Shown here piece by piece: positions 3,659 to 8,024 of a stretch of DNA of 64,000 bases. Both the position numbers and the translations under genes were made by a program. The notes beneath the pieces were generated by a model. The model was not told the origin of the DNA. It was given only the letters and a program-made list of their open reading frames with translations, and did not search any database. The number at the start of each line of letters is the position of its first letter. Position 1 is the first letter of the stretch. Source of the DNA: Rhodococcus sp. KBS0724 (GTDB taxonomy: Bacteria > Actinomycetota > Actinomycetes > Mycobacteriales > Mycobacteriaceae); the NCBI RefSeq assembly GCF_005938745.2, contig NZ_VCBX02000001.1:3858501-3922500 (forward strand), given 5' to 3'.

Positions 3659-4948
3659 TCAGCAATACCAGTCGCGTCGCGATCGCGGCATACCACTTGA
3701 TCCTCGTTCACCGGGTTTCACCGCCAGCACCTGATGAATGGTCAGTCGATGCGCCACCTCGAAGCCGAGAGCGCTGGCCGCAAGGTACAACAACCACGTG
3801 CGGACTCGCGCGTCGCCGACCTCAGCAACAGCGGCGTCCCAGTTCTCGCGCAGATTCGCCACCCACGCACGCAGTGTCAGCGCATAGTGTTCGCGCAACG
3901 CATCACTATCCCGAGTCTCGAAGCCTGAACGCTCCAGAGCGTCAACCGTTTTACTCAACGGGAGAATCTCGCCGTCCGGGAAGATGTATCTGTCGATGAA
4001 ACCAGGCGCGTCCACAACTTTGTCCGGCAACGATTTCACCGAAGCAATGGCGTGATTGAGAAAGCGTCCCTCCGGCTTCAGCAACTCGTACAGATGGGCC
4101 GTATAGATCGGCAAATTCGCCAAACCCACGTGCTCCGACATACCGATACTCGAAATAGCGTCGTACGGGCCGTCATCCACATCGCGGTAATCCTGCACGC
4201 GAACATCGATACGGTCCGTCAACCCGGCGTCTGCAACCCGGGCCTTGGCGTACTCCACCTGTTCGCGGCTGAGTGAAACACCGACAACGTCGACGCCGTA
4301 GTTCTGCGCCGCATGCAGTGCCATCGATCCCCACCCGCACCCGACATCGAGAAGGCGCATTCCCGGCTTCAACTCCAGCTTCCGACAGATCAGATCAAGT
4401 TTCTCGCGCTGCGCATCCTCGAGCGACACCGTTCCGTCCGGCCAGTACCCACACGAATACACCATGCTCGGACCGAGAAACAGTTCGTAGAAACGGTTTC
4501 CGACGTCGTAGTGATGAGAGACAGTCGCCGAATCGCGAGACTTGCTGTGCCGCTTGCCACGTTTGGCCCGCATCTCGATCTCCGGCGGCGCCGGCGGAAG
4601 CCCGAGCGCTCCCAGGCCGGCAAACGTCATCACCGACCGGGCAATCGTACGTGCCGACATCCCGGCCAGGCGATGCTCGCCAATCCGCGAAATCAGGTCC
4701 GGAACATCCAGCAGGGCAAAGATATCGCCGTCGACGTCCAAGTCTCCGGAGACATACGCCCGCGCCAAACCCAATTCATTCGGCGAGTAGAGAACTCTGC
4801 GCAGCGCTCGCCGGTTCCGGAAAAAGACCCGAGCCTGCGCGTCGGCGGGTCCGGCCTCCGACCCGTCCCAACAGCGCACATGAATCGGGAGTTCAATCCC
4901 TACCAGTTCCTCGAACACCGTCAGAATCTTGGTTGCGGCACCGCTCAC
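3659..4948 (-). CDS. Cyclopropane-fatty-acyl-phospholipid synthase family methyltransferase (UfaA1-like)
   Basis: A 429-residue SAM-dependent enzyme that modifies unsaturated acyl chains of membrane phospholipids. The N-terminal part (to about 110) is the CFA-specific accessory region. SKSRDSATVSHHYDVGNRFYELFLG and MVYSCGYW are the classical CFA synthase motifs, followed by the SAM-binding loop LLDVGCGWGSMALHAA. The length and the C-terminal SFE-like tail are closest to the mycobacterial UfaA1 type, a family linked to cyclopropane or methyl-branched (tuberculostearic-type) lipids; which product is made here cannot be settled. The start is GTG 4948 with AAGGGACGGATGG upstream. It lies downstream of the PLP decarboxylase, separated by 180 bp that hold a long inverted repeat. 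Confidence 0.9.
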   Translation of the reverse strand: MSGAATKILTVFEELVGIELPIHVRCWDGSEAGPADAQARVFFRNRRALRRVLYSPNELGLARAYVSGDLDVDGDIFALLDVPDLISRIGEHRLAGMSARTIARSVMTFAGLGALGLPPAPPEIEMRAKRGKRHSKSRDSATVSHHYDVGNRFYELFLGPSMVYSCGYWPDGTVSLEDAQREKLDLICRKLELKPGMRLLDVGCGWGSMALHAAQNYGVDVVGVSLSREQVEYAKARVADAGLTDRIDVRVQDYRDVDDGPYDAISSIGMSEHVGLANLPIYTAHLYELLKPEGRFLNHAIASVKSLPDKVVDAPGFIDRYIFPDGEILPLSKTVDALERSGFETRDSDALREHYALTLRAWVANLRENWDAAVAEVGDARVRTWLLYLAASALGFEVAHRLTIHQVLAVKPGERGSSGMPRSRRDWYC

Positions 4949-5037
4949 CCATCCGTCCCTTCTACGAAACGACAGCCTCTGCTACTCGAAATCTACGCCC
5001 GCGTCGGCGAAATTTCGCGGCATATGTGAGGTTTGGT

Positions 5038-5118
5038 GCATCCCCCCTTCCGAGCGAACGTACCTTTCATCGCCTTCACAGCGATGGGCGTACCTTTCGC
5101 TCAAACGGGGGGCGATGC
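5038..5118 (-). promoter_or_regulatory. Long three-tier inverted repeat upstream of the CFA-type gene; possible structured leader RNA
   Basis: An 81-bp element of nested inverted repeats lies in the 180-bp gap upstream of the lipid methyltransferase. The outer arms are GCATCCCCCC (5038-5047) and GGGGGGcGATGC (5107-5118), the middle arms GAGCGAA (5052-5058) and TTCGCTC (5096-5102), the inner arms CATCGC (5068-5073) and GCGATG (5081-5086). Between middle and inner stems each side carries the same 9-10 nt block, CGTACCTTT / CGTACCTTTC (GGTACG when read as minus-strand RNA), giving a symmetric internal loop. There is no U-tract, so it is not a simple terminator. It could be a cis-regulatory leader or a dispersed intergenic repeat. 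Confidence 0.6.
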
Positions 5119-5128
5119 ACAGCCCAGG

Positions 5129-6661
5129 TCAGGGTTCCACGAGCCCAGCCAGGAATTCCACCAGCAGACGCGTAGTGACCTCGCGGGGCAAGGACTCAAC
5201 AGCGGCGAGAACCGCAGCCATGTCGAGGGGCGAGTCGCCTTCGCCCTTCGGATCCAGCCCCGCCGACACGAGCGCAGCCGCAACAGCCGCACTGGGCAAT
5301 GCCCGAACATCGTCGACGCTCACATCGCCACGCTCGAATGCGCCGGCCAGCTCCGCCAGTGCGGGCGGCGGCCCGGCCGCGGGTAGGCCCCGAACATCAT
5401 CGGCGCCCAATTCCAATGCACTGGTCAGCTCGCTCAGGACACTGTCCGTGACGGGCGTGATCGTGAGATGCGTGGTTCGAGGCAAGGCAGTGCCGTCGGG
5501 TTGCGTCGACGCAGGTTGCCCCTGGAGCACAAACCCTCGAACGCCGACGGCGGTGGCCCAGCGATGCGGATCGACCTGCCGATCCTGCGGCACTCCCGCA
5601 TCCGCTGCTACCGCGAACAGTGGGCCGACTGGAGTTCCGACGACGCGTAACCCGTCGATGCCGGCAACGGTGTCCACGAGGGAGGCAGTCGCTCGGTGGG
5701 CGCGCGCTACCAGGTCTGCGTAGCCCGATTCGCCGAGCACTTGGGTGATGGACCAGGCTCCGGCCAGGGCTGCAACGGATTTCGAACCCATCAAGGTCGG
5801 GTTGACCACGGGATATCCGGGCCACCCGGTGAGACCGAAGTACTGCTTGCGGTGCAGATCGCGCCCCCGGTACAGAAGAACCGACGCTCCCTTTGGCGAG
5901 TAGCCGTACTTATGTACGTCGGCCGAGATGCTGGTGACACCGGGAACCTGGAAGTCCCAGGCCGGAAGCTCACCCCACCACGGCAGAGCAAACCCTCCGA
6001 TGCAGGCATCGACGTGAAATGGAACAGACTGTGTGCGAGCAATTTCCGCTATCTCGGCGATCGGGTCGAGTGCAGCAAACGGATAGCTCGGTGCTGACGC
6101 CACGATCAGCACCGTGTCACCTCGCAACGCTGACGCTATGTCGGCGGCGCGCACCCGACCGGATTCGGGATCGACGGCCACCAAGACCAGTTCGAGACCG
6201 AGTAGGTGCGCCGCCTTGTGGAAGGCTGCATGAGCAGTCGTCGGTAGGACGATCGACCCCTGCCCCGGCGGAAGGCCACGCAGGTCGCGAGCAGCTTTGA
6301 CTGCCAGCACACAACTTTCGGTCCCGCCGCTGGTGACGTTGCCGACCACGTCACCGTCTCCGTGCAGGAATCCGCGCACAAACCCGACAAGTTCGCGTTC
6401 CATCACCGCAGTGGACGGAAACACCGTGGGATCAAGCCCGTTGACGGGTTGCACTAATTGCGCTGCGTCCGTGGCCAACTGATCAAGTGTGGCCAGTCCG
6501 CTGTCGTACACGTAGGACAGAACTCGACCACCATGCGTCGGAGCGTCCTGTTCACGCAGGCTGCGGAGTCTCTCAAGCACCTCCGCGGACCGTTTCTCGA
6601 TCGCAGTATTACCAAGAATCGCAGTATTACCAAGAAAAGAGTTGGTGTCACTGACGGTCAT
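5129..6661 (-). CDS. PLP-dependent group II decarboxylase / aminotransferase-like enzyme
   Basis: A 510-residue pyridoxal-phosphate enzyme of the glutamate decarboxylase/sphingosine-phosphate lyase group. It shows NVTSGGTESCVLAV (cofactor phosphate contact), PFHVDACIGGF (the Asp that holds the pyridine nitrogen) and SADVHKYGYSPKGAS with the PLP lysine. The last about 90 residues form an Ala/Leu/Glu-rich helical extension beyond the usual fold. The substrate (amino acid or phospho-sphingoid-like) is not evident. Start codons ATG 6664 and ATG 6661 both follow AGGAG; 6661 has the better spacing. The start overlaps the end of the MFS symporter gene, so the pair is likely co-translated and may act on the same compound. 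Confidence 0.85.
   Translation of the reverse strand: MTVSDTNSFLGNTAILGNTAIEKRSAEVLERLRSLREQDAPTHGGRVLSYVYDSGLATLDQLATDAAQLVQPVNGLDPTVFPSTAVMERELVGFVRGFLHGDGDVVGNVTSGGTESCVLAVKAARDLRGLPPGQGSIVLPTTAHAAFHKAAHLLGLELVLVAVDPESGRVRAADIASALRGDTVLIVASAPSYPFAALDPIAEIAEIARTQSVPFHVDACIGGFALPWWGELPAWDFQVPGVTSISADVHKYGYSPKGASVLLYRGRDLHRKQYFGLTGWPGYPVVNPTLMGSKSVAALAGAWSITQVLGESGYADLVARAHRATASLVDTVAGIDGLRVVGTPVGPLFAVAADAGVPQDRQVDPHRWATAVGVRGFVLQGQPASTQPDGTALPRTTHLTITPVTDSVLSELTSALELGADDVRGLPAAGPPPALAELAGAFERGDVSVDDVRALPSAAVAAALVSAGLDPKGEGDSPLDMAAVLAAVESLPREVTTRLLVEFLAGLVEP
6600..6635. repeat. 18-bp perfect tandem duplication in the decarboxylase N-terminus
   Basis: The unit atcgcagtattaccaaga occurs twice head to tail (6600-6617 and 6618-6635). 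Read on the minus strand it duplicates six residues (LGNTAI) near the N-terminus of the PLP decarboxylase. It keeps the frame and looks like a recent slippage or duplication event. Confidence 0.9.
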
Positions 6662-8024
6662 CATGCTCCTGTTCACTGCTGTATGCGCGTAAGACGAGAA
6701 GGCTGATCGCGACCAGGGCGGCCGGGGCCAGCGAGAATCCGAGGGCGATGCCGGTGATTGCGGAGCCCGGCTGGGAGGCGGTCTCCCCTGCCTGCGAGGA
6801 CACGAAGCCCGTCGACGCCAGAAACAGCAGGAACACTGCCGGTCCGAGGGCCAGTCCCGCGGTCTCGGCCGCCGTCCAGATCCCGCTCAACGACCCGCCG
6901 CGTTGGCGTCCACCGATGCGAGCATCGTCCTCGATCACATCGGGAAGCATGGCTAACGGAAATACCTGCATTCCGGCGTAGCCGACGCCCGCAAGACCGA
7001 CTGCGCCGTAGATCCACGCTCCGGCGTCTACTGCGGCGAACGCCAAAAGCAGTGTCGCGACAACAAAAACCGTCGACGCGACAACATACCCTCGGAGCTT
7101 GCCGTGGCGATGGGAATAGCGGTACCACAGCGGCATGATGATCAGCGCCGGACCGACCAACGCCGCGAACAGTCCGGTGATGGCGTCTTCGTTCCCCATG
7201 ACGTACGTTGCGAGATACTGGGCACCGCCCAACATCACGGCCGTCGCGAGCGCCTGCAGGACAAACACGATCACGAGCAAACGGAACGACCGAGTACTGC
7301 GAACGGCGTCGAACCCGTCTCGGTACTGCGAGAGCAATGATCCCACCGGCGCATCAGCGCGCGTCACCGTTCGACGGGCGGCGCCGAACACCGCCCACAA
7401 CATTGCGGCGCACATCAAAGCCGACACACCCACGGCCATCACGAGATAGCCGCCTGCGCCACCTCCAGCGGCGTTGCGCAGCGCCGGTCCACCTCCGCCG
7501 ATCACCAGAATCGCCAAGGCCAGCACCGCTATTCGTACGGATACCAACCGAGTGCGCTCGTGATAGTCGCCGGTCAGCTCTGTTGGCAGGGCAATGTACG
7601 GCACTTGGAACAGGCTGTAAGCGCTCGCTGCAAGCAGGAAGAACACCAGTACCCACACCGCGCCGACGCCCGGGCCGGCTGAGACCGGTGCGGCAAAGGT
7701 CAGCACGAAGAGCAACGGAAGAGCCAGTGACCCCATCAGCATCAGAGGTACGCGCGTGCCCATTCGGTGCGAACTTCGGTCACTGACCGTTCCGATCAGC
7801 GGATCGACAAGCACGTCCGCGATCTTCGGAACGATTACCACCAGCGATGCGATACCGGCAGCTACGCCCAAGGTGTCGGTGAGGTAGTACGCCAGTACCA
7901 ATCCAGGCAGGACGCCAAATCCACCGGTGCCGATGCTTCCCGCGGCGTAGGCGGCAACAACGCCCCGCGACAACCGTCCGGCCGCGCGGCGTCCGCTGCC
8001 CTGCATGGGTTTTTCTGTGGTCAC
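6648..8024 (-). CDS. MFS / GPH-family sugar:cation symporter-like transporter
   Basis: About 458 residues with twelve predicted membrane segments. The segment AYYLTDTLGVAAGIASLVV followed by KIADVLVDPLIGTVSDRS matches the MelB/GPH (glycoside-pentoside-hexuronide:cation symporter) branch, which carries sugars or other polar solutes with Na+ or H+. FQVPYIALPTELTGDYHERTRL in the middle is the usual GPH loop. The start is uncertain: GTG 8024 (VTTEKPMQG) or ATG 8006; neither has a clear ribosome site. The gene overlaps the following decarboxylase gene by 14 nt, which suggests the transported compound is the decarboxylase substrate or product (inference). Confidence 0.85.
   Translation of the reverse strand: MTTEKPMQGSGRRAAGRLSRGVVAAYAAGSIGTGGFGVLPGLVLAYYLTDTLGVAAGIASLVVIVPKIADVLVDPLIGTVSDRSSHRMGTRVPLMLMGSLALPLLFVLTFAAPVSAGPGVGAVWVLVFFLLAASAYSLFQVPYIALPTELTGDYHERTRLVSVRIAVLALAILVIGGGGPALRNAAGGGAGGYLVMAVGVSALMCAAMLWAVFGAARRTVTRADAPVGSLLSQYRDGFDAVRSTRSFRLLVIVFVLQALATAVMLGGAQYLATYVMGNEDAITGLFAALVGPALIIMPLWYRYSHRHGKLRGYVVASTVFVVATLLLAFAAVDAGAWIYGAVGLAGVGYAGMQVFPLAMLPDVIEDDARIGGRQRGGSLSGIWTAAETAGLALGPAVFLLFLASTGFVSSQAGETASQPGSAITGIALGFSLAPAALVAISLLVLRAYSSEQEHDDRQ

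Follow-up and report, generated by a model that had tools for sequence, protein, structure and literature searches.

A nested hairpin of Rhodococcus sp. KBS0724 as a probable dispersed recognition site of an AbiEi/Vsr nuclease-like protein

Repetitive extragenic palindromic (REP) sequences and REP-associated tyrosine transposases (RAYT) are characterized by short palindromes dispersed in extragenic DNA at the 3′ ends of genes and tied to a low-copy chromosomal gene lying beside or between copies. ERIC and RPE-like palindromes and miniature inverted-repeat transposable elements (MITEs) are also palindromes dispersed at intergenic sites. For AbiEi antitoxins, binding to pairs of 23-bp inverted repeats located 3 bp apart is described in PMC7319586. 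We analysed here a long nested hairpin at positions 5036-5120 of a 64,000-nucleotide stretch of Rhodococcus sp. KBS0724 (contig NZ_VCBX02000001.1, positions 3,858,501 to 3,922,500), hereafter the window. The hairpin belongs to a family of dispersed palindromes, and in Rhodococcus and further members of the Mycobacteriales related palindromes flank genes for a protein combining an AbiEi-like winged helix with a Vsr-type nuclease fold. It is probably a DNA element, a dispersed recognition site of this domesticated AbiEi/Vsr nuclease-like protein; such sites would be spread and replaced in the fashion of REP/RAYT, but by a protein unrelated to RAYT. Palindrome and gene together look like a new kind of repeat-and-enzyme partnership, not an RNA switch.

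Folding of the window sequence extended the paired bases slightly beyond the 5038-5118 first proposed and located the three coaxial stems of the original prediction. Stability is well above that of shuffled sequences, with z between −4.7 and −5.7: segment 5038-5118 folds at −42.1 kcal/mol (z −5.65), a value matched by none of 200 shuffles, and the flanked segment 5020-5140 gave z −4.66 on the + strand and −5.39 on the − strand (0/200 shuffles as good). Within the hairpin (5036..5120, no strand assigned) lies a 51-bp core (5052..5102, no strand assigned) composed of the 22-nt left arm GAGCGAACGTACCTTTCATCGC (5052..5073, + strand), which we call the type I half-site, a 7-nt loop (5074-5080) and a 22-nt right arm (5081..5102, + strand). 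Copies with a full 22-bp hairpin form class A; the window copy is of class B, where GTAC in the right arm is shifted one base out of register. The outer stem has a 5′ side (5036..5048, + strand) that is C-rich, as at many other copies, and pairs with 5107-5112 and 5114-5120 in the G-rich 3′ side (5107..5120, + strand). In the middle stem 5052-5058 pair with 5096-5102, followed by GTAC 5060-5063 with 5090-5093, and in the inner stem 5066-5073 pair with 5081-5088. The GGTACG-type block predicted on both sides proved to be a direct repeat, CGTACCTTTC, at 5059..5068 and 5089..5098 (both + strand), whose two copies pair via the self-complementary GTAC.

BLASTN revealed five further places in the window's own genome (G000; other G codes designate the genomes compared and L codes the loci fetched) that match the element. 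The 11-mer CGAAAGGTACG occurs 16 times in this genome, against 2 for the reversed control. Matches were obtained in 9 of 41 genomes, G000 included (9/25 of the genus, 0/16 of the others), and an exact pattern run over the named genome collection returned 28 stretches, every title being Rhodococcus (globerulus, erythropolis, qingshengii and unnamed species). With 37 to 70 nt permitted, length is exactly 51 nt in 50 of the 54 rows from fetched loci, the four others being script artefacts (three re-reads of listed copies and one spurious); eight rows carry neither class label. Two covariance models were built after exclusion of near-copies, one from 13 rows (11 of the 16 class B and 2 unlabelled) and one from 18 of the 26 class A rows. 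Model R1 matches window positions 5034-5120 with 88.1 bits, the window copy being itself among the 13 rows used to build it. In other species, the best covariance-model matches have quite different arms and mostly keep the hairpin layout (arms of ~22 bp and a short loop). Three local arrangements were also observed. At L007 (G000:C1:14681), the 21-bp remnant GAGCGAACGTACCTTTCGCTC is the leftover expected from a class B element after deletion between its two direct CGTACCTTTC repeats; at L043 (G004:C65:90645), a second, partial copy stands in tandem behind a palindrome and may reflect a stage in the growth of the repeat; and the elements at L003 and L007 adjoin a terminator-like hairpin that is complete, distinct from them and accompanied by A and T runs.

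Type I copies adjoin unrelated genes (functions of the neighbours untabulated). Using a crude gene caller, 24 of 49 copies (orthologues counted) were placed between tandem genes, 20 between convergent and 1 between divergent genes, 3 within an open reading frame (ORF), with 1 undetermined, to be compared with 13 tandem, 10 divergent and 3 convergent among the window gaps of at least 60 nt. All but one of the 45 intergenic type I copies have a gene 3′ end no more than about 100 nt away. Among the two possibilities raised by the original prediction, a structured regulatory RNA or a dispersed intergenic repeat family, it is the repeat family that these data bear out. The window copy itself is lineage-specific. 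The orthologous region was located in nine relatives and the element is absent from all nine, as judged by alignment (eight genomes and G010), covariance-model search and a palindrome test demanding at least 17 of 22 paired bases. The covariance-model search of these loci returned the window's own copy as sole match, and the palindrome test, which counts Watson-Crick pairs only and also misses the window's class B copy, found none in the nine loci. In G008, which is 88-89% identical on either side, 23 unrelated bases replace the window's 94.

In several genomes, two palindrome copies about 1.1 kb apart enclose one ORF of about 322 aa. Its product carries an AbiEi-like winged-helix N-terminal part (6y8q, 1zel) and a C-terminal nuclease fold of the Vsr/I-Bth0305I type, with conserved candidate residues and a putative cleavage activity. 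At E values up to 1, Pfam gave nothing for the query protein, NCBIfam a sub-cut-off, irrelevant match only, and the sequence profile search no solved relative; precomputed PF09407 is present on 1 of 120 listed homologues (P0041). Of 28 Rhodococcus genomes, 26 contain homologues, with 38 matches in total and one or two genes per genome. The two genomes lacking a homologue, one of which is 75% complete, are the same two that lack a hit in the covariance-model scan of the 28 genomes, where 150 candidates were scored per genome. At the level of the order, homologues reaching at least E 1e-20 are present in 70 of 249 genomes, the best eight candidates of each being scored. The 97-nt element matched none of 72,556 plasmid or 50,697 phage records; the protein matched a single plasmid record (R. 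ruber pmega_4) and no phage record, and a mobile carrier was rejected on these grounds. The pmega_4 gene (L351) has a palindrome on either side, one paired at 22 of 22 positions and the other at 20 of 22. Gene neighbours look metabolic where ORFs were read by eye (L026, L058), and in the annotated R. ruber record they are a hypothetical protein and an acyl-CoA carboxylase subunit. No toxin partner gene was noticed beside the gene, no toxin or AbiEii profile having been run on the neighbours.

The linkage between gene and palindrome was evaluated on 119 distinct loci, namely all 38 Rhodococcus matches and 82 of the 128 places of the order-level search (one repeats the G000 place; the 46 left out were mostly the weakest). 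A locus was scored as flanked when a palindrome with at least 17 of 22 paired bases lay within ~330 bp of the gene. This was the case on at least one side in 88 of 119 loci (75 upstream, 52 downstream, 39 both), that is 35/38 in Rhodococcus and 53/81 elsewhere. The identical test applied to control placements gave 0/51 in the window and 0/80 in unrelated loci (0/131 together). Many arms contain an inner dyad, with scores of at least 5 in 33% of 103 arms, against 5.7% of shuffled arms. Catalytic residues are intact in 79 flanked loci and not in 9, the corresponding numbers for unflanked loci being 9 and 22. More distant homologues of genus g15 (L281-L285, 36-39% identity) have GGGGCCCC-centred palindromes downstream and not upstream, as seen at 5 of the 7 loci examined from g15. 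We also observed a DnaA-box-like word (TTATCCACA or TTGTCCACA, on either strand) upstream of the partner gene in 87 of the 119 loci, with a median distance of 75 nt to the beginning of the tblastn match; it is present in 27 of the 31 loci without palindromes, and the 64-kb window has none. Expression of the gene is possibly linked to replication or to DnaA.

Palindrome type follows the gene. Within a locus, the arms of the palindromes to the left and to the right have a median similarity of 1.00, and across loci with protein identity below 60% the mean is 0.50; arm similarity declines with protein identity except in the smallest bin, the pairs being non-independent. Ten close genomes carry the partner gene at one and the same locus, with flanks 84-96% identical to G008, and none of the ten has an empty allele of this home locus. 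The allele is type I in seven of them (G008, G004, G003, G017, G016, G014 and G043) and type II in three (G000, G010 and G021), the type II gene being ~71% identical to that of G008 and its palindromes being GTGAACGTATCGCT. At this locus, G000 retains the left 22-nt arm of the type I site; its sequence diverges precisely where the arm passes into the loop, which is also the start of the type II unit. Gene and palindromes have been replaced here as a unit.

Type changes were also observed at fixed dispersed sites. The type II pattern was detected in G000, G010 and G021, in G003 (3 copies) and in G014 (1 copy), and in none of the other 23 genomes. One dispersed site is occupied by type I in G008, G004, G014, G010 and G017 and by type II in G000, G003 and G021; a second one is type I in G000 and G004, type II in G003 and G021, and vacant in G008. 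Since the gene allele of G000 is type II, the type I copy of the window is best seen as a leftover, most likely the relic of a replaced type I gene. Elsewhere palindromes reach high numbers. In six genomes of one genus, the arm TTGCGAAAGCCACTTTCGCAAC, with at most two mismatches, was found (forward/reverse) 42/45 times in G103, 147/141 in G124, 188/184 in G117, 20/24 in G195, 79/79 in G096 and 1/1 in G082, while reversed-pattern controls gave 0 in all six. The maximum is 372 arm matches in one genome, with up to two per palindrome. A gene bearing the TTGCGAAAGCCACTTTCGCAAC palindrome was seen in G103 and G124 only. In G195, nearly all 44 matches (L296 and other places) correspond to the variant TCGCGAAAGCCACTTTCGCGAC, a subtype proper to one genome.

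What these data provide directly is association, from which we infer binding, cleavage and movement. By analogy with AbiEi antitoxins, the winged-helix part would bind half-sites of 22-24 nt. The nuclease part might then nick or cut the palindrome, perhaps as an extruded cruciform, and repair from another copy would both spread sites and convert old ones to the new type; sites at gene 3′ ends would survive because they do least harm there. Taken to its full extent, this would be a repeat-and-nuclease drive of Actinobacteria: the protein cuts its own 51-bp palindrome, sites multiply, and arrival of a rival allele at the home locus leads to their conversion in place, one by one. We put this extended scenario forward as tentative.

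Several observations weigh against the proposal of a dispersed recognition site spread by its protein. Covariation inside type I is weak. Neither a clean excision or insertion junction nor a target duplication was found at the sites compared (the window site and the dispersed sites), and more distantly related genomes carry two sites that G008 lacks, so that loss is equally likely there. At the home locus, the upstream palindrome shows a GGCACGTTC variant in four of the seven type I genomes and is degenerate, below the 17-of-22 test, in G008, G004 and G003. Copies also exist without a matching gene: type I in G000, and type II in G003 (3) and G014 (1). Many TTGCGAAAG arms are present in G117 and G096, yet no gene scored there (best 8 of ~50 candidates per genome) bears that palindrome; these two genomes are a misfit, unless the gene was lost, changed or unscored. 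Finally, the 17-of-22 test detected no palindrome at 31 of the 119 loci, of which 28 are outside Rhodococcus, and an independent-pairs test of flanking against intact catalytic residues gave no signal, the association being at clade level only.

The main alternative is that palindromes are only AbiEi-like binding sites, serving autoregulation, a scattered regulon or chromosome organization, and that the nuclease domain has no part in their spread. The geometry is close to that of the AbiEi operator as given in PMC7319586 (a pair of 23-bp repeats with 3 bp between them), 75 of 119 loci have a site upstream of the gene, and the inner dyad seen in many arms (33% of 103 scoring at least 5, against 5.7% when shuffled) would suit such a role. 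However, divergent promoter-promoter gaps are avoided (1 of the 45 intergenic type I copies, with 44 near a gene 3′ end), 52 of 119 loci have a site downstream, and up to 372 arm matches occur in one genome. The 3′-end position, downstream sites and high copy number disfavour a plain regulon, and binding alone explains neither spread nor in-place type changes. We regard a purely operator function as rather unlikely. Mobilization by another enzyme, a Y1/HUH RAYT or an insertion sequence, with the AbiEi/Vsr-like gene as frequent passenger or insertion target, appears improbable. Y1_Tnp genes do occur in 12 of 28 Rhodococcus genomes, three of them within the ten of the erythropolis clade, but Y1_Tnp, the only transposase family searched, is missing from the other seven, including G000, where its 0 matches led us to reject a RAYT partner; passenger status also leaves unexplained that palindrome type follows the AbiEi/Vsr-like allele.

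The two neighbouring genes are both on the − strand. The hairpin starts 8 nt beyond the stop of a gene of the pyridoxal phosphate (PLP)-dependent decarboxylase type (5129..6676, Pfam PF00282). Its downstream neighbour, a CMAS-type lipid methyltransferase gene outside the palindrome system (3659..4948, Pfam PF02353), has its called start 103 nt from the 51-bp core and 87 nt from the whole hairpin. With these distances, the hairpin is as much a 3′ element of the former as a leader of the latter. Its original assignment to the leader of the lipid methyltransferase gene holds in that it lies upstream on the strand of this gene, and is one-sided in leaving out the decarboxylase-type gene. A position just beyond gene 3′ ends and a very stable fold are what a bidirectional terminator or an mRNA-stabilizing 3′ hairpin, retained for RNA function, would display. 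Yet a pattern search found no U-tract or terminator-like site in window positions 4800-5300, as originally remarked, and an intrinsic terminator was rejected; the copies at L003 and L007 already adjoin a terminator-like hairpin of their own, Rfam has no match in the window at gathering score, and covariation within the type is too weak to be accepted as proof of RNA function. A retained RNA role, which would also leave gene linkage and type matching unexplained and may be a side effect, is very improbable. A leader riboswitch of the cyclopropane-synthase-type gene, suggested by the hairpin lying upstream of it and on its strand, is extremely unlikely and was refuted in the main: Rfam is empty, the orthologous place lacks the element in 9/9 relatives, and copies stand at the 3′ ends of other genes. 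The regulatory RNA interpretation was not supported, the original prediction being partly supported overall; the cognate nuclease-like gene was beyond its view.

If the dispersed palindromes are indeed recognition sites of the AbiEi/Vsr-like protein, unexplained actinobacterial palindromes, present in hundreds in some genomes, would gain a cause and a testable partner protein, and REP-like repeats, AbiEi regulators and Vsr-type homing nucleases would be connected. The drive system, if true, would be a second and chemically unrelated invention of the role that RAYT plays for REPs. Natural swaps of alleles that alter the specificities of protein and site jointly would offer a direct route to studying conversion of repeat types. 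Among open-access titles and the beginnings of abstracts, none links palindromes of this kind to this protein family; the pairing may have been described earlier elsewhere.

Compared with known systems, the present copies resemble ERIC, RPE and MITEs as dispersed intergenic palindromes, and differ by the lack of target duplication at the sites compared and by types that are gene-specific. The partner protein has the fold of the catalytic domain of EDxHD/Vsr-type nucleases. Unlike I-Bth0305I/Vsr, its gene stands alone between other genes and not within or next to an intron or intein (introns were not searched for), and it is flanked by copies of its presumed site, its activity being putative. 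It is also an AbiEi-like DNA-binding protein, as in type IV AbiE systems. It shares with AbiEi/Rv2827c autoregulation (PMC7319586) the N-terminal fold (6y8q, 1zel) and the site geometry; in contrast, it has an additional C-terminal nuclease domain, and sites lie to either side of the gene and are numerous genome-wide. The closest parallel in arrangement is REP/REPIN-RAYT: here too palindromes are extragenic, dispersed in many copies, located at 3′ ends and accompanied by a low-copy chromosomal partner gene. The type I site has a fixed length of 51 bp, unlike REP/REPIN, and the partner is an AbiEi-type winged helix with a Vsr-type nuclease fold instead of Y1_Tnp (PF01797). Because the partner fold differs, the present system is REP/RAYT-like in its working, yet not a member of that family.
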